Positions 4,404 to 14,966 of a DNA stretch of 64,000 nucleotides are shown here, piece by piece (within the stretch, counting starts at the first letter, position 1; every line of letters starts with the position of its first letter). The notes under the pieces were generated by a model. That model had not been told where the DNA came from, did no database searches, and saw nothing but the letters and a program-made list of their open reading frames with translations. The DNA comes from Bartonella elizabethae F9251 = ATCC 49927 (GTDB lineage: Bacteria > Pseudomonadota > Alphaproteobacteria > Rhizobiales > Rhizobiaceae), in contig NZ_JADB01000005.1 in assembly GCF_000518165.1 (NCBI RefSeq), positions 1-64,000 of the forward strand, read 5' to 3'. Position numbers and translations under genes: made by a program.

Positions 4404-5834
4404 GTGAAAAAACAAAGCTGGTCTACGCTTTTAGTGGGTAAAAATGGTCTTTGCTTTTTAACGTTTACAGGCGGAGTTGTGCTGCACGCCACTAACGTTT
4501 ATATTGTTATTACTATTTTACCCTCTCTTATGGATCATATTGGCAATGAAATATATTATTCTTGGGTGGCGACTGTCTTCATTACAGCTTCACTGGTAGG
4601 AACTTCACTTGCAACAAAAGTATTAGGAAAATTAGGCCCTCGCAATGCTTATGTTATCTCTGGGCTTATCTTTACCCTAGGGACTTTCTTGTGTAGCATT
4701 TCCTCATCTATGCCATTATTTTTAATAGGGCGCTTTATTCAAGGATTTGGTAGTGGTTCTTTGTTATCCCTATCTTATTCCATGGTCCGTATTGTTTTCA
4801 GTCCATCTTTATGGTCACACGCCTTAAGTGTTATTTCTGGAATGTGGGGAATATCAACCTTGTTAGGACCAGCAATCGGGGGACTTTCTGTATATTATGG
4901 CCTATGGCGAGCGTCCTTTTGGGTTATTGGCGTATTCGGTATATTCTTCTCACTCATCGCCTTTAAATTTTTGCCAAAAAAGAATGAAAACGATATTCCA
5001 ACATCCCCTCTCCCTCTTCTCCAGCTTCTCACACTCACCTTATTGATTTTTATCATTTCTGTTGGAGGAACTATGGAATCAACAATGGCAAAAATCTGCG
5101 GGCTTGTTATCGGGATTAGTCTTCTCTTTGTTCTCGCAAAAATCGAATCATCTTCCCTTCATCCTATGTTACCCCGTAAAACTTTTTCTTTTTCTTCTGA
5201 AATTTTTCCTGTTTACGCATTGATACTTGTTATGACAACAGTCGTATATAGTATAGAACTTTATTTTCCACTTTTTCTTCAAGAGCTTCATGGGCAAGCT
5301 CCACTTATTGCTGGTTATATAGCAGCACTCATGAGCCTTGGGTGGACATGTGGTGCCCTCTCAAGTGCTGGTATCTCCGCAAGAAAAATTCGCAACATCA
5401 TTGTATATTCCCCCTTATTAAAACTGTTAGGCATCACCATTCTTTTATGGCTTATTCCAACAAAAATTTCCACACTTGAATATATTTTTATTATTTGCTT
5501 AGCGCTATTTTCTATTGGGATCAGTGCGGGTATAGCGTGGCCACATTTACTCACAAGGATCTTACAATGTGCAAATGATGAAGATGCTCTGCGTGCAAGT
5601 GAATCCCTTACCTCTGTGCAACTATTTTCAGCGGCCTTAAGTGCAACTCTAGCGGGAGTCATCACCAATCTTGCGGGCCTCTTTAATCCTGGAGGAACAA
5701 TAGGAATGATCTTAGCAGCAAAAACGCTTCTTATCGTGCTCATGGGGCTTTTATCTTGTTTTGCTATTCCATTAGCGTTGCGCATTTCTTACTGCATATT
5801 AAAAAATCCAACAGGAGATTCCAATAATAACTAA
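4404..5834 (+). CDS. MFS transporter, drug:H+ antiporter type
   Basis: A 476-aa inner-membrane protein with about 12-14 hydrophobic segments. After the second segment it has KVLGKLGPR, a form of MFS motif A, and in the fifth segment LLGPAIGG, the antiporter motif C of drug/H+ exporters. These point to a proton-driven efflux pump; the substrate is unknown. The only plausible start is the GTG at 4404, since the next in-frame ATG would remove the first segment; the ribosome-binding site is weak. It is convergent with a second MFS gene 43 bases downstream. An alternative reading as an importer is less likely because of motif C. Confidence 0.85.
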   Translation: MKKQSWSTLLVGKNGLCFLTFTGGVVLHATNVYIVITILPSLMDHIGNEIYYSWVATVFITASLVGTSLATKVLGKLGPRNAYVISGLIFTLGTFLCSISSSMPLFLIGRFIQGFGSGSLLSLSYSMVRIVFSPSLWSHALSVISGMWGISTLLGPAIGGLSVYYGLWRASFWVIGVFGIFFSLIAFKFLPKKNENDIPTSPLPLLQLLTLTLLIFIISVGGTMESTMAKICGLVIGISLLFVLAKIESSSLHPMLPRKTFSFSSEIFPVYALILVMTTVVYSIELYFPLFLQELHGQAPLIAGYIAALMSLGWTCGALSSAGISARKIRNIIVYSPLLKLLGITILLWLIPTKISTLEYIFIICLALFSIGISAGIAWPHLLTRILQCANDEDALRASESLTSVQLFSAALSATLAGVITNLAGLFNPGGTIGMILAAKTLLIVLMGLLSCFAIPLALRISYCILKNPTGDSNNN

Positions 5835-5877
5835 AAATAAATATAAAAATTCTCTCTCCACTCAAAAAAGAAAAATA

Positions 5878-7077
5878 TTAAGAATGCTTCTCCAGAAACC
5901 ATGAGACGCAAAAAACCATTAATCCGCAAAACGTTAGAAGACTCCCTAAAACAGCTGTATATTCATAACTATAGCCTAATTTTAAAACCAAGGCTCCAGC
6001 TTCTGCACCAAGAGCGTTAGCAATATTAAAAGCAGACTGCATTAATGCTCCTGCCAAAACCTGTCCCTGTATTGCAACATCCATAATTTTTGTTTGTATA
6101 GAAGGCATAGCCGCAAAAGAAGTCCCAACAAAAAAACATCCTATTGCAGCTGTTAACGGAGTATAGGATAAAAAGAAAAAAAGAAAAAAAACAAATATGC
6201 TCCAAAGCATAGAAAAAAATATCATCGGCGAAATGCCTATTTTAACAGCCAATTTAGGACCCAAGAGATTTCCACCCACCATCCCCAATCCAACTAAGGG
6301 CATGATAAAGGGTACCCACTCAAGCGAAATACCAGAAATATGCATTAACGTTGACTTAATATAAGTGAAAACAGAAAATAATCCTGATGCTCCCACCGAA
6401 ACCATTGTCAAAAGAAGCCACACCTGCTTTTGCTTTAATGCACGCATTTCGCTTAAAGGGCTCGTTCTTGAGGTCCTTGAATCGCAAGGCAAAAAATTCC
6501 AAATAAGCAAACAACACAATAAAGCAATCATACCCACAAGAATGAAAGCAATCTGCCAACCAATAAGTTGACCAATCCAAGTTGCACTTGGTGCTCCTAA
6601 AACGGTTGCAATGGTTAAGCCAAGCATAACAGACCCAACAGCTTTAGAACGTTCCTTCATTTCCACCATTGAAGAGGCAACCATAGCCGCAAGTCCGAAA
6701 TAAATTCCATGAGGAAGCCCACTGAGAAAGCGTAATGTAACTAATATGCTAAAATCAGAAAAAAAAGCACTCGCACTATTTGCTAAGGCATAAAAAAACA
6801 TTAATCCTATCAAAACAGTTTTGCGTGAAAATTGAGCTGTCGCTAGAGCTAAAAGAGGGGCTCCAATCACAACCCCTAATGCATAAGCAGAAATATATTG
6901 ACCGGCAGTAGGAATATCAACAGATGAACTTCGTGCCATCTCTGGTAGAAGTCCCATTGCAACAAACTCTGCCGTACCGATAGCAAAGCTTCCCACTGCA
7001 AGGGCTAAAATTGCTAAACGTCGTATTTTCGAATCAGTCTCCAATACAAGAATGTTTTGTTTACGAGAATCCTTCAT
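5878..7077 (-). CDS. MFS transporter, DHA1 family (AraJ/NepI-like)
   Basis: A 399-aa protein with about 12 membrane segments. The first begins with FAIGTAEFVAMGLLPEMA and is followed by ISAYALGVVIGAP, the signature of the DHA1 subgroup that includes sugar, purine-nucleoside and drug exporters. Motif A is divergent (FSRKTVLIG), and VLGAPSATWIG takes the place of antiporter motif C. It is therefore an inner-membrane exporter of unknown substrate. The ATG at 7077 is the natural start. The gene is convergent with the other MFS gene (43-base gap) and has a long AT-rich upstream region. Frame and length are normal. Confidence 0.85.
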   Translation of the reverse strand: MKDSRKQNILVLETDSKIRRLAILALAVGSFAIGTAEFVAMGLLPEMARSSSVDIPTAGQYISAYALGVVIGAPLLALATAQFSRKTVLIGLMFFYALANSASAFFSDFSILVTLRFLSGLPHGIYFGLAAMVASSMVEMKERSKAVGSVMLGLTIATVLGAPSATWIGQLIGWQIAFILVGMIALLCCLLIWNFLPCDSRTSRTSPLSEMRALKQKQVWLLLTMVSVGASGLFSVFTYIKSTLMHISGISLEWVPFIMPLVGLGMVGGNLLGPKLAVKIGISPMIFFSMLWSIFVFFLFFFLSYTPLTAAIGCFFVGTSFAAMPSIQTKIMDVAIQGQVLAGALMQSAFNIANALGAEAGALVLKLGYSYEYTAVLGSLLTFCGLMVFCVSWFLEKHS

Positions 7078-7948
7078 ATCATCACTTCTGGATAAGAATT
7101 TTTGCTGTAGATATCTGTAATACGGAAAAATAAAAATTCAAAACATTGTTATACGCATAGAAAATCGTCCCCAATAAAGTTTTAGAAACATTTTGATATG
7201 CAAGCATTTTATGAAATTTTAAGAAAGATTTTTGAATGAAGAAGCTTTTAAAAATTTCTCATGATAATGATCTAGATTCCTCAATTGATTAAAGAAACCT
7301 ATTCTAGAGATATTCCCCGTATCTCATCTCATAGATGAAATAGTATAAGATCGTTTTTTATCTAACACACTATCTGTAAATTTGAAATATTTACATAATA
7401 TATTCTGATATTTATATAATATTCTATAAATAGAAAAGATAATAAATATGATAATTTGATTAAAGATATTTATGAATATTTTATAAGAGTATAATTATAT
7501 TATAAATAATAATTATATAAAAATAATAAAAACATAAAATGTAATTTTATAAATTTTAAAGATTATAATATTAATTTATTATTACTTTAATTTTCTAAGT
7601 TTTTATCTCTTCTTATGCATGTAACACATTCTTTACCTTAACCAATAAAAAACACAAAAGAACTCATAAAAATACAATTTTCATACTTCTTTAAGAGTTC
7701 GCTAACGCCTCATTAACATTGTTGTTTTAAACAGTCATCAGAAACAGAAATAAACTGTTTTTCTCCGGATCAGGTAGCGCGTACCGGAGTAACAGTTTCT
7801 GTTTTATATGATAATTGCAAAAAGAATATATGCTCCATAAAATAGCACCTTCAGACTTCAAGATAGTGCAATTTTATATTTTTAGTAAAATTTGTAAGTA
7901 AAAAAATAAATTCAATAAAAAATAAAACGCTATTAGATGAATAGTTTT
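7078..7948. other. AT-rich intergenic region with one structured element
   Basis: 871 bp between the 5' end of the MFS gene and the 3' end of tgt. The stretch 7380-7600 is extremely AT-rich and holds no usable frame. The only clear structure is the GC-containing hairpin at 7742-7804, listed separately. Confidence 0.5.
7742..7804. repeat. Extended inverted repeat, possible structured RNA
   Basis: Nested complementary arms form a ~63-nt hairpin: AAACAGAA (7742-7749) with TTCTGTTT (7797-7804); ACTGTT (7754-7759) with AACAGT (7791-7796); and CTCCGG (7763-7768) with CCGGAG (7784-7789). The apical loop contains GGTAGCGCG. A four-base internal bulge lies on the left arm. It is the only GC-rich island in an AT desert. 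It could be the end of a small RNA, a protein-binding palindrome or a terminator for tgt-strand transcripts (144 bases past the tgt stop). Confidence 0.45.
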
Positions 7949-9067
7949 TTAGCGTCCTTGTGCCCATAGAGCACGCGTTTCAGCGCAAAAATCAGCATAA
8001 CAGCCCTCTTCAATGGCATCACGAATTCCTTGCATCAATTGTTGGTAATAAAAAAGATTATTCCAGGTCAACAACATCCCTCCCAGAGATTCACCAGATT
8101 TGATCAAATGATGTAAATAAGCACAACTATAATCATTTGCTGCTGGACAAAGTGACTGTGGATCAAGAGGATGGGGATCTTCTGCATAACGCGCATTGCG
8201 TAAATTAATTCTACCAAAGCGCGTAAAAGCTAAACCATGACGTCCTGCACGCGTTGGCATAACACAATCAAACATATCAATACCACGCGCAACACTTTGT
8301 AAAATATCATCAGGTGTCCCAACTCCCATAAGATAGCGCGGTTTATCCTCTGGCAAAATCGGACAAGTCGTATCCAACACTGCTGTCATAACACTCTGCG
8401 GCTCACCAACAGCAAGCCCTCCAATCGCGTAACCTTTTAAATCCATTTCTTTTAATGCTTGAGCAGAACGTTCACGTAGTTTCATATTATCCCCCCCTTG
8501 AACAATCCCAAACAATGCTTTATCTGGCTGTTCTCCAAAAGCTGTTTTACAACGTTGTGCCCACCGTAATGAAAGCTCCATAGCTTCTTCCATCTCTTTT
8601 TCAGTGGCTGGTAATGCAATACATTGATCCAACTGCATCTGGATATCGGCATCAAGAAGTCCTTGAATTTCGATAGAACGCTCTGGACTCATTTCATAGT
8701 AGGCTCCATTAATGTAAGAACGAAAAATCACACCTTGTTCGTTAATTTTACGGATGCTCGCCAATGACATAACCTGAAAACCACCAGAATCGGTTAAAAT
8801 AGGTCCATTCCAGCGTGAAAATTCATGTAATCCTCCCAAACGAGCAACACGTTCAGCGCCTGGGCGTAACATTAAATGATAAGTATTCCCCAAAATAATA
8901 TCCGCCCCAAGATCACGTATTTGATCCATATACATAGCCTTAATGGTTCCTGCCGTCCCAACAGGCATAAAAGCAGGTGTACGAACACACCCACGCCCAG
9001 TAATAATTTCGCCTCGACGCGCCCATCCATCTTGAGCAATTTTTCTATAATGAAATGTCTTTATCAT
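7949..9067 (-). CDS. tgt: tRNA-guanine transglycosylase, zinc ligands degenerate
   Basis: A 372-aa enzyme of the Tgt family, which exchanges guanine-34 of GUN-anticodon tRNAs for preQ1 or queuine. It has GNTYHLMLRPG, LTDSGGFQ (Asp93, general base), GIVQGG, GGLAVGE and GIDMFDCVMPTR (Asp264, the nucleophile position). The usual C-x-C-x2-C...H zinc site is not intact: aligned to the family it reads Ser305, Cys307, Ala310 and Asn336, so only one ligand remains. The surrounding residues (NDYS, AYLHHL, NLFYYQQLM) align without gaps. The ATG at 9067 is preferred to the GTG one codon earlier. It lies downstream of gyrA-coaD-PPIase genes on the same strand, separated by a 1.46-kb gap. Activity or altered substrate use is an open question. 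Confidence 0.93.
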   Translation of the reverse strand: MIKTFHYRKIAQDGWARRGEIITGRGCVRTPAFMPVGTAGTIKAMYMDQIRDLGADIILGNTYHLMLRPGAERVARLGGLHEFSRWNGPILTDSGGFQVMSLASIRKINEQGVIFRSYINGAYYEMSPERSIEIQGLLDADIQMQLDQCIALPATEKEMEEAMELSLRWAQRCKTAFGEQPDKALFGIVQGGDNMKLRERSAQALKEMDLKGYAIGGLAVGEPQSVMTAVLDTTCPILPEDKPRYLMGVGTPDDILQSVARGIDMFDCVMPTRAGRHGLAFTRFGRINLRNARYAEDPHPLDPQSLCPAANDYSCAYLHHLIKSGESLGGMLLTWNNLFYYQQLMQGIRDAIEEGCYADFCAETRALWAQGR

Positions 9068-10530
9068 CACTCTTATCTTCTCGATTTGATTCCATCAATG
9101 CATACTTCTATAGAAAGAAAAAAGATATCTCTCTTACAAGCATTGTCATAAATTTTATGAATTAATTTTCGATTCACTCGAACCAGTAAAAAGATAAACG
9201 AGATAAAAGAACATTTGTTGTTAGAAAAAACCATAATAAAGAAATAATCTAACTTCAGAAAATAACAAAAATATTATACCTTAAAATATCGATGCTTAAC
9301 GCACCAAAGCCTTAAAATAGAACTGTGAAATTATTATCTCAATAATCTCCTCTTTACGCATTTTCATAAGCAATGTTTTTGTACGAATAGAGGAAAATTT
9401 TAATCACATTCGCTTTCAATATTTCTCACTTTGAAAGATAAGTTTTTATCTATTGGATAATAGATTGATTTATAAAAATAATTTACTTTTTTCATATTGA
9501 ATGAAAGACTCTTATAGCGTCAGCTTCTCCCATTCTAAACTTATACCATATTGAATCACCCAAAATCACTTACTTACACGTTATAAACGACTAGGTCATG
9601 CGGAGTGAAGCTGTACAAAAAAAGGCTAAAAAATGCTTCTTGTGAATGCTCTCAAGCGCCAAGAGCTCCCGCAACCTCAGAAAATGGCAAAATGTGTGAT
9701 GGTTCCAGCTTGTTCTTTTATTAAGCCATTAAACGTAAAGATGCTTCTACTCAATAAGTTTTATATAACTCATAGCGGCTTTATCGTTAGATTATTCACT
9801 AAATGGACTTAGATGTGCTAAGAGATGTTTTTTTAAACAAGCGCGTAAATATGTGACACAAGCATATTTCATTTAAAGTATTCCTCCATAAAAAACGAGT
9901 AAAACAAGAGTGTAAAGCCATGCATAATCTTTGTCATCTAAAAGATATTTCTTTAAATGGTTTTGAAAAAAATAAATCGGAATTAAAAAGGAGATGATAA
10001 AATAACTTTTTGTGTTCACCTTTACAACTTTATATTCTCCCCCAATTAAGTAACCTTTCTATTTTAGAGATTACAGCAATAAAAATATACACAATATGCT
10101 CGCTCTTTCACCTTGCATATGGATATGAAGCAGCCAGGCTTTTACCCGTCTCAATATATATTTTGAACATGCTGCAGCATTAGAATTAGATATTGATATA
10201 AAAACAGAAATAAAAGCATGTTCCTTTTAAGGAAAAGAACAAAACTATTAAGAGCCCAGCAATGGATTGAAGGGAAGTGCCGGCATTTTTATAAAACACT
10301 TTTCACCCCTAACACAACTGTCTTCGCATTTTTCTATCCTGATAGCTTTTTGCACAAATCCCCAGCGCCATATTCCTGAAAATAAGATTGAAGAGAATAA
10401 TAGAGAATTCTTAACTCAAGAATATGAAAGGGAAGCATGATACTACAAAAGAATTTCGTACACCTTTATTGATCAGAAAAGAATATTTTCTTTTAGCCAA
10501 TTTACAATTGAAACACGTGTAATATTTATA
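9068..10530. other. Gene-free gap between ppiB and tgt (1463 bp)
   Basis: No intact gene on either strand. Short coding-like pieces occur (for example a 58-codon frame starting at the ATG at 9632, and frames near 9920 and 10100-10350), but none gave a recognisable protein. In related alphaproteobacteria queA, about 1.05 kb, occupies this position between the PPIase genes and tgt; the gap is large enough to hold its decayed remains. I could not match any queA motif by eye. Confidence 0.5.
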
Positions 10531-11043
10531 CTATTTTACATCCGCAGCAATAATAGCTTTGGTAATTGCATCAGGATCGATAACAGGTTCACCACGTTTA
10601 ATTTTATCAACATTTTCCATACCTTCAACGACCTTCCCCCATATGGAATATTGACGATCAAGCCACGGAGCATCTGCAAAACAAATAAAAAACTGCGAAT
10701 TAGCGGAATTTGGATTCTGACTCCGTGCCATAGAAACTGTACCACGCTTATGAGAAAGATTTGAAAACTCTGCTGTTAAATTTGGTTTTTCTGAACCACC
10801 CATCCCCGCACGTGATAAATTAAATTTTTCACCATCCTTCTTTCCAAATTGCACATCACCAGTCTGCGCCATAAAACCATCAATAACACGATGGAAAATA
10901 ACATTATCATAAGCACCTTCACGAACAAGTTCCTTAATACGTGCAACATGACCAGGCGCTAAATCAGCAAAAAGTTCAATAACAACTCTACCCTTCGTCG
11001 TTTCAAGAATTAAGATATTCTCTGGATTTTTATTCTCAGCCAT
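10531..11043 (-). CDS. ppiB: Cytosolic peptidyl-prolyl cis-trans isomerase (cyclophilin)
   Basis: A 170-aa cyclophilin without a signal peptide. It has the core motifs FHRVIDGFMAQTGD (catalytic Arg in FHRV), MARSQNPNSANSQFFIC and APWLDRQYSIWGKV. It catalyses proline cis-trans isomerisation and assists folding in the cytosol. The ATG at 11043 follows AAGGAG. It is the last gene of the gyrA-coaD-PPIase-PPIase block, 17 bases after its paralogue, and is probably cotranscribed with it. The two cyclophilins are clearly related to each other, indicating duplication followed by compartment change. Length and motifs are normal. Confidence 0.93.
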   Translation of the reverse strand: MAENKNPENILILETTKGRVVIELFADLAPGHVARIKELVREGAYDNVIFHRVIDGFMAQTGDVQFGKKDGEKFNLSRAGMGGSEKPNLTAEFSNLSHKRGTVSMARSQNPNSANSQFFICFADAPWLDRQYSIWGKVVEGMENVDKIKRGEPVIDPDAITKAIIAADVK

Positions 11044-11060
11044 ATGAAAACTCCTTTGAT

Positions 11061-11657
11061 TTATCTTTCAATTTGTAAAGCAGCAGCATGAATAACATCA
11101 GGATTTGTTACAGCCCCATTATTACTTGCAGTTCCTTTTTTAATTTTATCAACAATATCCATCCCCTTTATGACCTCTCCAACAATCGTATACTGACCAT
11201 TCAAAAAAGGAGCATCATCAAAACAAATGAAGAATTGAGAATTCGCGGAATCTGGATCTTGTGACCGTGCCATTCCAACTGTACCGCGCTGAAACGGTTG
11301 CTTTGAAAACTCAGCCGGTATATTGGGATAATTTGACCCCCCCATACCAACGCGTTTCAGATCAAAATCTCTACTGCCTTTTTTTCCAAACTTTACATCA
11401 CCAGTTTGTGCCATAAAGCCAGGAATAACGCGATGAAACACAACATTATTGTAAGCGCCCTCCTCTGTTAGTTTTTTGATTTGCGCAACGTGTTTTGGCG
11501 CCAAATCAGGACGCAAACGAATAATAACATCACCGTCTTTGAGAGATAAAACAAGCAGGCTTGCATCACTTGCTGAGCTAAAATTATTAGCAACAGCGCG
11601 CAATGAAAAAAAACAAAAAAAACATATCAAAACAGCAAAGAATCTACGAGACACCAT
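11061..11657 (-). CDS. ppiA: Periplasmic peptidyl-prolyl cis-trans isomerase (cyclophilin)
   Basis: A 198-aa cyclophilin with an N-terminal signal peptide: basic start MVSRRFF, a hydrophobic run of about 12 residues and a likely cleavage after ALA-type residues near position 23. The mature domain contains FHRVIPGFMAQTGD, MARSQDPDSANSQFFIC and APFLNGQYTIVGEV. It should assist folding of proteins in the periplasm. The ATG at 11657 has AGGGGTG ahead; the gap to coaD upstream is 9 bases, so it is part of the gyrA-coaD operon. The symbol follows common practice for the exported member of the pair. Confidence 0.88.
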   Translation of the reverse strand: MVSRRFFAVLICFFCFFSLRAVANNFSSASDASLLVLSLKDGDVIIRLRPDLAPKHVAQIKKLTEEGAYNNVVFHRVIPGFMAQTGDVKFGKKGSRDFDLKRVGMGGSNYPNIPAEFSKQPFQRGTVGMARSQDPDSANSQFFICFDDAPFLNGQYTIVGEVIKGMDIVDKIKKGTASNNGAVTNPDVIHAAALQIER

Positions 11658-11666
11658 TATTCACCC

Positions 11667-12164
11667 CTATAAAGACTGGAATTTCGAACGTAAAGCTTGT
11701 GCAATATTGGTCGGCACAAATGGCGTCACATCCCCTCCCATAGAGGCAATTTGACGAACCAATGTAGATGTTATCGCACGTCCAGAAACACTTGCCGGCA
11801 AAAAAACAGTTTGCAATTCAGGGGCCATAATAGCATTCATCCCTGCCATTTGCATTTCATAATCAAGATCAGTGCCATCACGCAATCCACGAATGAGAAA
11901 TGAAGCACCAACTTCACGCGCCTTCTCAATGAGAAGGTTATCAAATGAAAGAACCTGCAACCGATTAGAATCTGCACCAAACAAATCTTTCCCTACCTGC
12001 AAAATCAAACCAACGCGCTCTTCAAAGCTAAAGAGTGTTTTCTTGCCCGCCTGTATACCTATAGCAACGATCACCCTATCAGCTAACACAAAACACCCTT
12101 TTAAAACATCAATATGACCGTTTGTAAGAGGATCAAAGGAACCTGCATAAAAAGCAATTTTCAT
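11667..12164 (-). CDS. coaD: Phosphopantetheine adenylyltransferase
   Basis: A 165-aa enzyme of coenzyme A synthesis that joins ATP and 4'-phosphopantetheine to give dephospho-CoA. It belongs to the nucleotidyltransferase fold: [14 protein letters not shown] near the N-terminus contains the (T/H)xGH ATP site, [16 protein letters not shown] lies in the middle, and ITSTLVR near the C-terminus matches the IS(S/T)xxxR signature. The ATG at 12164 follows GGAG. It begins 24 bases after the gyrA stop and is followed by the exported cyclophilin after 9 bases, consistent with one transcript. Length is normal. Confidence 0.96.
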
Positions 12165-12188
12165 GATTGTACTCCATCCTCTTCAAAA

Positions 12189-14966
12189 TTACTTTTCTTC
12201 GCTCATATCAACTGTATCAGAATGCTTCTCACCTTCATCCTCTAATGAACGCGTATCATCTTCAGGTTCAGAAATACGCTCAACCGATACGACTCTTTCA
12301 CCTTCAGCTGTATTAAAAATTGTCACCCCCTTCGTTGAACGCCCAGCCGTACGAATTCCCTCAACAGGGACGCGAATAAGCTGTCCCCCATCTGATACCA
12401 ACATAATTTGATCTTGTGCTTTCACGGGGAAAGCCGCTACTAATTTACCAATTTCAGCTGTTTTAGATGGATCTGTTGCACGAATCCCTTTCCCACCACG
12501 TCCCGAAATCCGGAATTCATAGGAAGAAGAGCGTTTGCCATAACCAAATTCACTCACGGTTAAAAGCATTTGTTCACGTTCATGGAGTTCTGCATAACGC
12601 TCATCCGTTAACTCTGTCTCCATTCCTATATCTTCTTCATCCAGAGTTACAATATCCTCTGTATCAACACCATCAGCACGCCGTTCATTCATCACACGTT
12701 TAATGTAAGCAGAACGCTCAATGGACGTTGCCTCAACGTGTTCTAAGATTGTCATCGAAATGACTTTATCGCCTTGAGCCAAATTGATACCACGAACACC
12801 TACAGAATTACGCCCTACAAAAACACGAACATCTACCACTGGAAAACGGATACATTGTCCATTCGCTGTTGTGAGAACAACATCATCATGTTCCATACAG
12901 GTCTCAACAGAAAGAATTTCATCTTCTTCATCAAGTTTCATGGCAATTTTACCATTACGATTAACCTGAACGAAATCTGATAACTTATTACGACGCACAG
13001 TTCCACGTGTTGTCGCAAACATGACATCCAATGCACTCCAACTTTCTTCATCTTCTGGCAAAGGCATAATCGTTGTAATGCGTTCACCTTGTTGTAAGGG
13101 AAGCATATTGATCAAAGCCCGTCCGCGCGATTGCGGTGTCCCCAGAGGTAGTCGCCAAACTTTTTCCTTATAAACAATCCCCCGTGATGAAAAGAAAAGA
13201 ACCGGAGTATGCGTATTAGCGACAAACAAACGCGTGACAAAATCCTCATCTTTCGTCGACATACCAGAACGTCCCTTACCGCCACGACGCTGTGCACGAT
13301 AGGTATTAAGAGGAACACGCTTAATATAGCCACTATGGCTCACCGTTACCACCATATCCTCTGGTGCAATCAGATCTTCACTGTCCATCTCAGCGCGACC
13401 AAAACCAAATACGGTCCGTCGCGGCGTTGCAAATTCCTCACGCAGAGCACTCAACTCGTCTTTAACAATACCCATAATGCGTACACGTGATGCCAAGATA
13501 TCAAGATAATCAGCAATATCCACGCCAATTTTATTCAACTCATCAGCGATTTCATCACGTCCAAGGGCTGTCAACCGTTGCAAACGCAATTCTAAAATAG
13601 CACGCGCCTGTTCTTCAGAGAGATTATAAGTACCATCCTCATGAATAATATGACGGGGATCATCAATAAGTTTAATCAAAGGCGCAACATCCATTGCCGG
13701 CCAGCGTCGCTCCATTAATTGTGTACGTGCTGTCTGTGGATCAGGAGCTTTGCGAATAAGCGCTATGATTTCATCAATATTGGCAACCGCAAGGGCAAGA
13801 CCAACCAAAACATGGGCCCGCTCACGGGCTTTACGCAAAAGATATTTTGTTCGCCGACTAACAACCTCTTCCCGAAAATTAACAAATGCACGAAGCATAT
13901 CAAGCAACGTCATTTGTTCGGGTTTTCCCCCGTTCAACGCAACCATATTACAACCAAAAGAAGTTTGCAGCGGCGTATAACGATATAATTGGTTTAAAAC
14001 AACTTCCGCAACAACATCTTTCTTCAACTCAATAACGACACGATAGCCATCACGATCAGATTCGTCACGCAAATCAGAGATTCCCTCAATGCGTTTATCA
14101 CGTACCAATTCCGCCATTTTCTCAATCATCGTTGCCTTATTAACCTGATAAGGAATCTCACTCACAATGATTGCCTGCCGACCACTGCGAATTTCTTCAA
14201 TCTCAACTTTAGCACGCATAATAATTGAGCCACGCCCTGTCTCATAAGCTGAACGGACCCCAGCATGGCCCAAGATAATCCCCCCTGTAGGAAAATCTGG
14301 CCCAGGAATAATTTCAATGATTTGATCGAGTGTGATACTGGGATTATCAATCAGAGCGATACAACCATCAACAACTTCACCAAGATTATGGGGTGGGATA
14401 TTGGTTGCCATTCCCACAGCAATCCCCCCTGATCCATTAACCAAAAGATTAGGGAAACGCGCTGGTAAAACAACCGGTTCACGTTCACGCCCATCATAAT
14501 TATCTTGGAAATCAACAGTATCTTTATCAATGTCAGCTAAAAGCGCTTCTGAAACTTTTTCTAAACGACACTCCGTATAGCGCATTGCCGCTGGTGGATC
14601 ACCATCCACGGAACCAAAATTCCCCTGACCATCAATCAATGGATTTCTCAAAGAGAAATCCTGCGCCATACGCACCAAAGCATCATAAATCGAAGCATCA
14701 CCATGGGGATGGAATTTTCCCATAACCTCCCCAACAACACCAGCAGATTTACGATAGGGTTTATTAAAAACAAGCCCCATCTCATTCATAGCATGAAGGA
14801 TACGTCGATGAACAGGTTTAAGACCATCACGGACATCAGGGAGTGCACGCGAAACAATGACGCTCATCGCATAATCGAGATAAGAGCGTTGCATTTCATC
14901 AATAATGCTGATTGGTTCAATACCGGTCAGCACATCACGTTCTAGCTGTGGAGTAAGATCGGTCAC
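12189..14966 (-). CDS. gyrA: DNA gyrase subunit A
   Basis: A 925-aa subunit of the type II topoisomerase that introduces negative supercoils. The winged-helix/tower part contains the active-site Tyr130 in AAMRYTE and the quinolone region [14 protein letters not shown]. The C-terminal beta-pinwheel carries the gyrA box QRRGGKG, which separates it from ParC, and the protein ends in an acidic tail. At the position of E. coli Ser83 there is Ala91, while Asp95 (E. coli Asp87) is kept. The start is GTG at 14966 with only a weak ribosome-binding site. It is the first gene of the block with coaD and two cyclophilins. Confidence 0.97.

Follow-up and report, generated by a model that had tools for sequence, protein, structure and literature searches.

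Does a bacterial tRNA-guanine(34) transglycosylase (Tgt) that has lost three of its four zinc ligands still work, and what holds its zinc subdomain together? This question is raised by the window, i.e., the whole stretch of 64,000 nucleotides analysed here (positions 1 to 64,000 of contig NZ_JADB01000005.1 of Bartonella elizabethae F9251 = ATCC 49927). The zinc domain has been called one of the two hallmarks of TGT (excerpts of PMC6165067), and E. coli TGT is described as zinc-requiring (PMC9508795, in part, citing Chong et al., 1995). Since the E. coli enzyme is described as needing zinc, zinc-poor relatives must have compensated. With a probability of about 0.82, we consider the window Tgt to be a working preQ1-type bacterial Tgt that has lost its structural zinc site and whose subdomain folds without zinc.

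The tgt gene and its residue map

The features of the locus are as follows, with residues in GTG numbering.

7949..9070, minus strand: tgt, bacterial tRNA-guanine(34) transglycosylase (TIGR00430, Pfam TGT, and PDB TGT matches)
8021..8170, minus strand: C-terminal "zinc" subdomain, residues 301-350, predicted to be folded despite the missing ligands (AlphaFold2 model)
8153..8155, minus strand: Ser306 (TCA), at the site of the Z. mobilis Tgt zinc ligand Cys318 (alignment)
8147..8149, minus strand: Cys308 (TGT), the sole ligand position retained (Zymomonas Cys320; alignment)
8138..8140, minus strand: Ala311 (GCA), at the site of the Zymomonas zinc ligand Cys323 (alignment)
8060..8062, minus strand: Asn337 (AAT), at the site of the Zymomonas zinc ligand His349 (alignment)
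8789..8791, minus strand: Asp94 (Zymomonas Asp102), catalytic, intact
8267..8269, minus strand: Asp268 (Zymomonas Asp280, the nucleophile), intact
8402..8422, minus strand: GGLAVGE, preQ1-type base pocket, 217-223 (216-222 in ATG numbering)
8237..8239, minus strand: His278, ten residues past the nucleophile; Thr or Asn in zinc-bearing Tgts
9071..10530, no strand: gap without detectable queA (six-frame translation)

The product of tgt has 373 amino acids when translated from the GTG start at 9070 and 372 from the ATG start at 9067, and GTG numbers 306/308/311/337 correspond to ATG numbers 305/307/310/336. The frame, which the sequence-only reading had called intact, encodes a full-length Tgt on the minus strand. 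This protein belongs to TIGR00430, which it matched over its full length with 460.5 bits (curated cut-off, 306.75), and it matched Pfam TGT with 496.8 bits (cut-off, 26.3). Its best solved relative by sequence is the Tgt of Zymomonas mobilis, whose zinc ligands we take to be C318, C320, C323, and H349; the Zymomonas numbering was anchored by PDB titles carrying Y330F, H333F, H319C, and V262D. In a gap-free region of the alignment these residues correspond to S306, C308, A311, and N337. One of the four members of the ligand set C-x-C-x2-C ... H is thus present, which is not the pattern of a zinc-binding TGT, and the loss of three ligands proposed from the sequence alone (Ser305, Cys307, Ala310, and Asn336 in ATG numbering) matches this alignment exactly.

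The catalytic aspartates D94, D148, and D268 (Zymomonas D102, D156, and D280) are all intact. The sequence-only reading had named Asp93 and Asp264 as the intact catalytic residues. Both are kept, but D267 (ATG), rather than D264, is the nucleophile; D264 is the other Asp of GIDMFD, and 264 is presumably the E. coli number of the Tgt nucleophile. As D264 and D267 are both intact, the point made about the catalytic site stands. The GGLAVGE pocket, also reported to be intact, was confirmed at 216-222 (ATG), and the same numbers are printed for the B. henselae Tgt in the available text of PMC11570991. The pocket is of the preQ1 type (GGLAVG) and not of the queuine type GG[LS][AS]G, as in Chlamydia, which is printed in the same text.

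Spread across Bartonella and Alphaproteobacteria

A search matched tgt in 70 of 71 Bartonella genomes; the genome without a match is 85% complete. The gene is intact in 68 genomes and broken in two (G032 and G042). All 68 intact Tgts have a zinc-poor site (62 S-C-A-N and 6 S-C-T-N), as does Brucella. Because all 68 are alike, the zinc-poor site is not a matter of chance, and a frame or assembly error was rejected on the same count.

From 587 named loci in a collection scan the best 80 were taken, a sample biased toward best hits, of which 62 lacked one or more ligands and 18 carried all four. The former include four Bartonella loci (also among the 68), Brucella, Sinorhizobium, Mesorhizobium, Agrobacterium, Methylobacterium, Bosea, Xanthobacter, and Bradyrhizobium, and the latter include Rhodospirillales, Acetobacteraceae, SAR116, Neomegalonema, and Colwellia. 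No record identified as Hyphomicrobiales was found among the 18 four-ligand loci within these best 80 of 587, and every such record read in the whole analysis lacks between one and all four of the ligands. In Bradyrhizobium, five loci have none of them.

For a survey of the class, two short subdomain profiles were run over 385 genomes, and each matched 344, among which the zinc-poor profile scored better in roughly one in six (an inexact count by eye). Sixty class regions (L150-L209), chosen by profile score difference to include zinc-poor-favouring ones plus some controls, consisted of 39 zinc-poor and 21 intact Tgts. The best 30 loci for the zinc-poor profile (L210-L239; 299 genomes of the phylum) were zinc-poor without exception (30/30), some of them repeating earlier genomes. 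Since the first set was picked by score difference and the second consists of the best zinc-poor-profile matches, the ligand-state counts given below are not frequencies. The zinc-poor Tgts come from 20 family codes, comprising f1, f2, f3, f175, f176, and f179 within the order of the window and 14 alphaproteobacterial ones outside it (f6, f12, f21, f32, f66, f82, f93, f118, f123, f125, f128, f133, f139, and f169). The other classes of the phylum were represented by 40 genomes, hand-chosen among the places listed in the phylum search, and all 40 have C-C-C-H (34 by script and 6 by eye). Judging from these sequences, the zinc-poor site is neither a Bartonella oddity nor a product of decay.

Two Tgt-subdomain matches per genome were observed in G091, G223, and G321 (f24) and in G104, G331, and G408 (f37), which possibly reflect two Tgt paralogues.

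Ligand states and history of loss

Ligand states were tabulated for 230 Tgts, i.e., the class plus two Colwellia records, with known duplicates removed and rows chosen to include zinc-poor ones. At least one ligand is missing in 191 of the 230, and all four are missing in 16. The common states are SCAN (105), CCCH (39), SCSH (23), SCTN (15), and SCSN (10); further states are SWAI (7), SCAV (6), SWTI (4), and SCAI (3), followed by SVAV, SSAI, LCSH, and VCSH with two each and SCTA, SCLA, HCLA, GCSH, SCAS, ICSH, SHAI, CCSH, SCAA, and ASSH with one each. Position 311 is not Cys in any of the 191 zinc-poor rows and CCSH is the sole three-ligand state, which suggests that C311 was lost first. The loss would have been stepwise, with C311 followed by C306, H337, and C308. 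The three aspartates of the catalytic site were found in all 144 Tgts compared and also in all 90 later loci, and the GGLAVGE pocket is present in 230 of 230, whether or not the zinc ligands are there (S replaces its A in 4).

For trees, 114 rows were retained after thinning of the 229, and the root was placed at the midpoint. In the careful tree (114 rows, zinc columns excluded), for which the bootstrap was not settled, intact and non-intact sites are separated by 5 changes, which could include regains; at least 3 are forced by well-supported branches, and a single change was enough in 0% of the 200 bootstrap trees. A quick tree of the same 114 rows gave 4 changes, 2 of them forced, and one built from all 229 rows, zinc columns included, gave 4 changes, 1 of them forced. 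Both eukaryotic TGT subunits are described with the ligands (PMC3660597, in part). Loss on more than one occasion is the simple reading, because the other-class genomes are all C-C-C-H and the eukaryotic subunits have the ligands. A history of loss with regain is a less simple alternative. H337 is again present in some Rhizobium and Agrobacterium inside an Asn-bearing group.

queA and the salvage lifestyle

The gene order in the window is coaD, two peptidyl-prolyl isomerase genes, a gap of 1.46 kb, and tgt, the first three being named from sequence. In Brucella rhizosphaerae the equivalent gap, between the peptidyl-prolyl isomerase gene and tgt, is filled by queA (Pfam Queuosine_synth). A queA hidden in 9071-10530 was rejected, as tblastn gave no credible match in the window and queA had no match in the genome; a search with Rfam over 5800-12200 of the window gave no match. 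Among the 71 Bartonella genomes, queA scored above the cut-off in 13, all with a zinc-poor Tgt site, had no match in 57, including that of the window, and was matched as a remnant in one more. This short remnant (G047, C15:38205-38342) lies immediately upstream of tgt and captures the loss of queA from Bartonella under way. The Q-precursor transporter family was matched in 70 of the 71 genomes, including that of the window. Of the two genomes with a broken tgt, G032 has no transporter match and G042 has kept the transporter.

Outside Bartonella, all 30 zinc-poor genomes tested have one Tgt (TIGR00430) and a QueA, both above the cut-off, and 7 of these Tgts are ligand-free. A second Tgt in these genomes was rejected by the single TIGR00430 match in 30 of 30. 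In the 62 zinc-poor named loci, queA was found inside the fetched flanks in 50 and was absent there in 12, four of which are Bartonella. Since zinc-poor Tgts coexist with QueA in 13 Bartonella and in all 30 other genomes, zinc loss predates queA loss and is independent of it. The ligands would have been lost while the ancestors still used QueA to make queuosine, before and independently of the salvage lifestyle of most Bartonella, and on the best reading the loss of the zinc site is unrelated to queuine specificity.

Predicted structure without zinc

An AlphaFold2 model of the window Tgt, built from a 62-row alignment, has a mean pLDDT of 92.3, with block means of 95-98 over 301-350 and 95-99 over 301-360. 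It superimposes on Zymomonas Tgt as a beta-alpha barrel (Z about 55; about 1.5 Å over about 370 residues); the model may simply draw the family fold, because AlphaFold works without metals and at most 18 of the 62 input rows were zinc-bearing. The dimer hot-spot residues of Zymomonas Tgt, W326, Y330, and H333 (PMC5395182, in part), correspond to Y314, Y318, and H321 in the window Tgt.

The sequence-only reading had allowed that the ligands might be supplied elsewhere, which would have undercut it, and this was not borne out: no new conserved Cys/His set was found in the zinc-poor Tgts of 114 thinned rows, and only H278 was gained. Cys316 (8123-8125), found in many Bartonella where the SRAYLHH motif, otherwise conserved, has its Arg, was rejected as a substitute ligand, as the residue is Arg in non-Bartonella rows, apart from a few in which the letters nearby differ. 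His278 is present in 55 of 61 thinned rows without H337, in 8 of 19 intermediates, and in none of 34 zinc-bearing rows; it is retained in 16 of 16 ligand-free Tgts and missing from several other zinc-poor lineages. This change from Thr or Asn to His characterizes most members of the main zinc-poor group and might tune the contact with tRNA.

We infer that, even without the metal, the C-terminal subdomain would stay folded and remain part of the surface for tRNA binding and dimer formation. Ordinary side-chain packing may take over from zinc, to judge from substitution patterns rather than coordinates. At the commonest site the putative solution would be polar, with Ser306, Ala/Thr/Ser311, and Asn337 together with Asp313; in Bradyrhizobium and some Hyphomicrobiales it would be hydrophobic, with Trp/Val308 and Ile/Val337.

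Evidence for a working enzyme and alternative explanations

The dN/dS ratio of the window tgt against 11 other Bartonella copies was 0.037-0.090 in 10 of 11 comparisons and 0.168 for a nearly identical copy. For the subdomain (296-349), dN was at most 0.048 where dS was 0.44-1.4 in the same 10 pairs. Selection on Bartonella tgt is purifying. In an E. coli queDF tgt mutant, the Tgt of B. henselae gave partial complementation at preQ1 concentrations as low as 10 nM; together with its own transporter, it permitted E. coli to salvage queuine above 500 nM. preQ1 was present in B. henselae tRNA only in trace amounts (PMC11570991, in the portions available). The zinc site of this enzyme was assigned from the genus, in which every intact Tgt shares the zinc-poor site, and not read by name; the word "zinc" has 0 occurrences in the main text of PMC11570991. 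In Sinorhizobium meliloti, whose Tgt zinc site was taken from its congener S. kostiense (L035, S-C-A-N), tgt mutants were reported to show Q-pathway phenotypes that preQ1 did not rescue, and the queA mutant, unlike the tgt mutant, had little or no defect in symbiosis (PMC3568095, in part). The genomic and published evidence is compatible with a working enzyme, G34 exchange being published for the B. henselae Tgt in E. coli.

The sequence-only reading had offered folding without zinc, changed specificity (queuine instead of preQ1), and decay as options. The first is favoured, by inference, from the wide sharing of the site, the sole Tgt kept beside QueA in 30 of 30 genomes, purifying selection, and the B. 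henselae complementation. Continued binding of a metal, either weak or by a different set of ligands such as Cys308 together with water or a His close by, is unlikely. Of the 61 thinned rows without H337, 84% do retain Cys308, and H320 and H321 are nearly invariant beside the gained H278; however, H320 and H321 are equally conserved in zinc-bearing Tgts, and the Zymomonas counterpart of H321, H333, lies at the dimer interface (PMC5395182, in part). Moreover, the 16 Tgts of 230 that also lack Cys308 have no ligand left, yet all have H278, the same residue that several other zinc-poor lineages do without.

That the Bartonella Tgt is on its way out after the loss of queA is very improbable, even though G032 and G042 carry a broken tgt, queA was unmatched or a remnant in most of the genus, and B. 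henselae tRNA has only traces of preQ1. The 13 Bartonella genomes with queA share the zinc-poor site, a full-score QueA accompanies the zinc-poor Tgt in all 30 other genomes tested, and dN/dS is low; decay is unsupported for the window gene, although it has befallen tgt in 2 of the 71 genomes. A switch to queuine that went with zinc loss has the slightest chance of all. It would fit the queuine salvage above 500 nM, but not the preQ1-type pocket in all 230 Tgts, the retention in the tested zinc-poor genomes of QueA, which acts after preQ1 insertion, or the use of preQ1 by the B. henselae enzyme down to 10 nM, which is described as its preferred substrate (PMC11570991, in part).

Relation to known systems and significance

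Zymomonas mobilis Tgt (PDB 1pud, 1q2r, and others) is 55-57% identical to the window Tgt and alike in fold, catalytic Asp pair, and preQ1 pocket, but it has C318/C320/C323/H349 where the window Tgt has S/C/A/N. The B. henselae bTGT, from the same genus, likewise has a preQ1-type pocket and no QueA beside it; it was assayed in E. coli in a paper that does not discuss its zinc site (PMC11570991). A parallel is the zinc-free zinc-binding domain of bacterial GluRS, also a tRNA enzyme, whose zinc subdomain persists and works without zinc in some lineages (PMC4381286, in part). GluRS is an unrelated protein, and the dispensability of zinc was tested there by domain swaps and is putative for Tgt. Among the matches listed from the open-access literature there was no report of a Tgt without zinc ligands, an absence that is weakly supported as most subscription journals lie outside this scope; the word "zinc" has 0 occurrences in PMC13416341, on the cryo-EM of E. 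coli TGT.

We consider it probable that queuosine is synthesized with a zinc-free Tgt across much of Alphaproteobacteria, perhaps in all Hyphomicrobiales, and that zinc was lost stepwise and repeatedly with function kept, down to the ligand-free enzymes of Bradyrhizobium. If this is true, these Tgts are an exception provided by nature, spanning one order and reaching past it, in which the metal is a replaceable structural part and the gene has been kept and is probably working. The zinc-poor Tgts would then offer a ready series of intermediates for studying the loss of a zinc site. The finding also bears on the limits of Zymomonas Tgt as a model for relatives in its class, and on how rhizobia and intracellular bacteria economize on metals.
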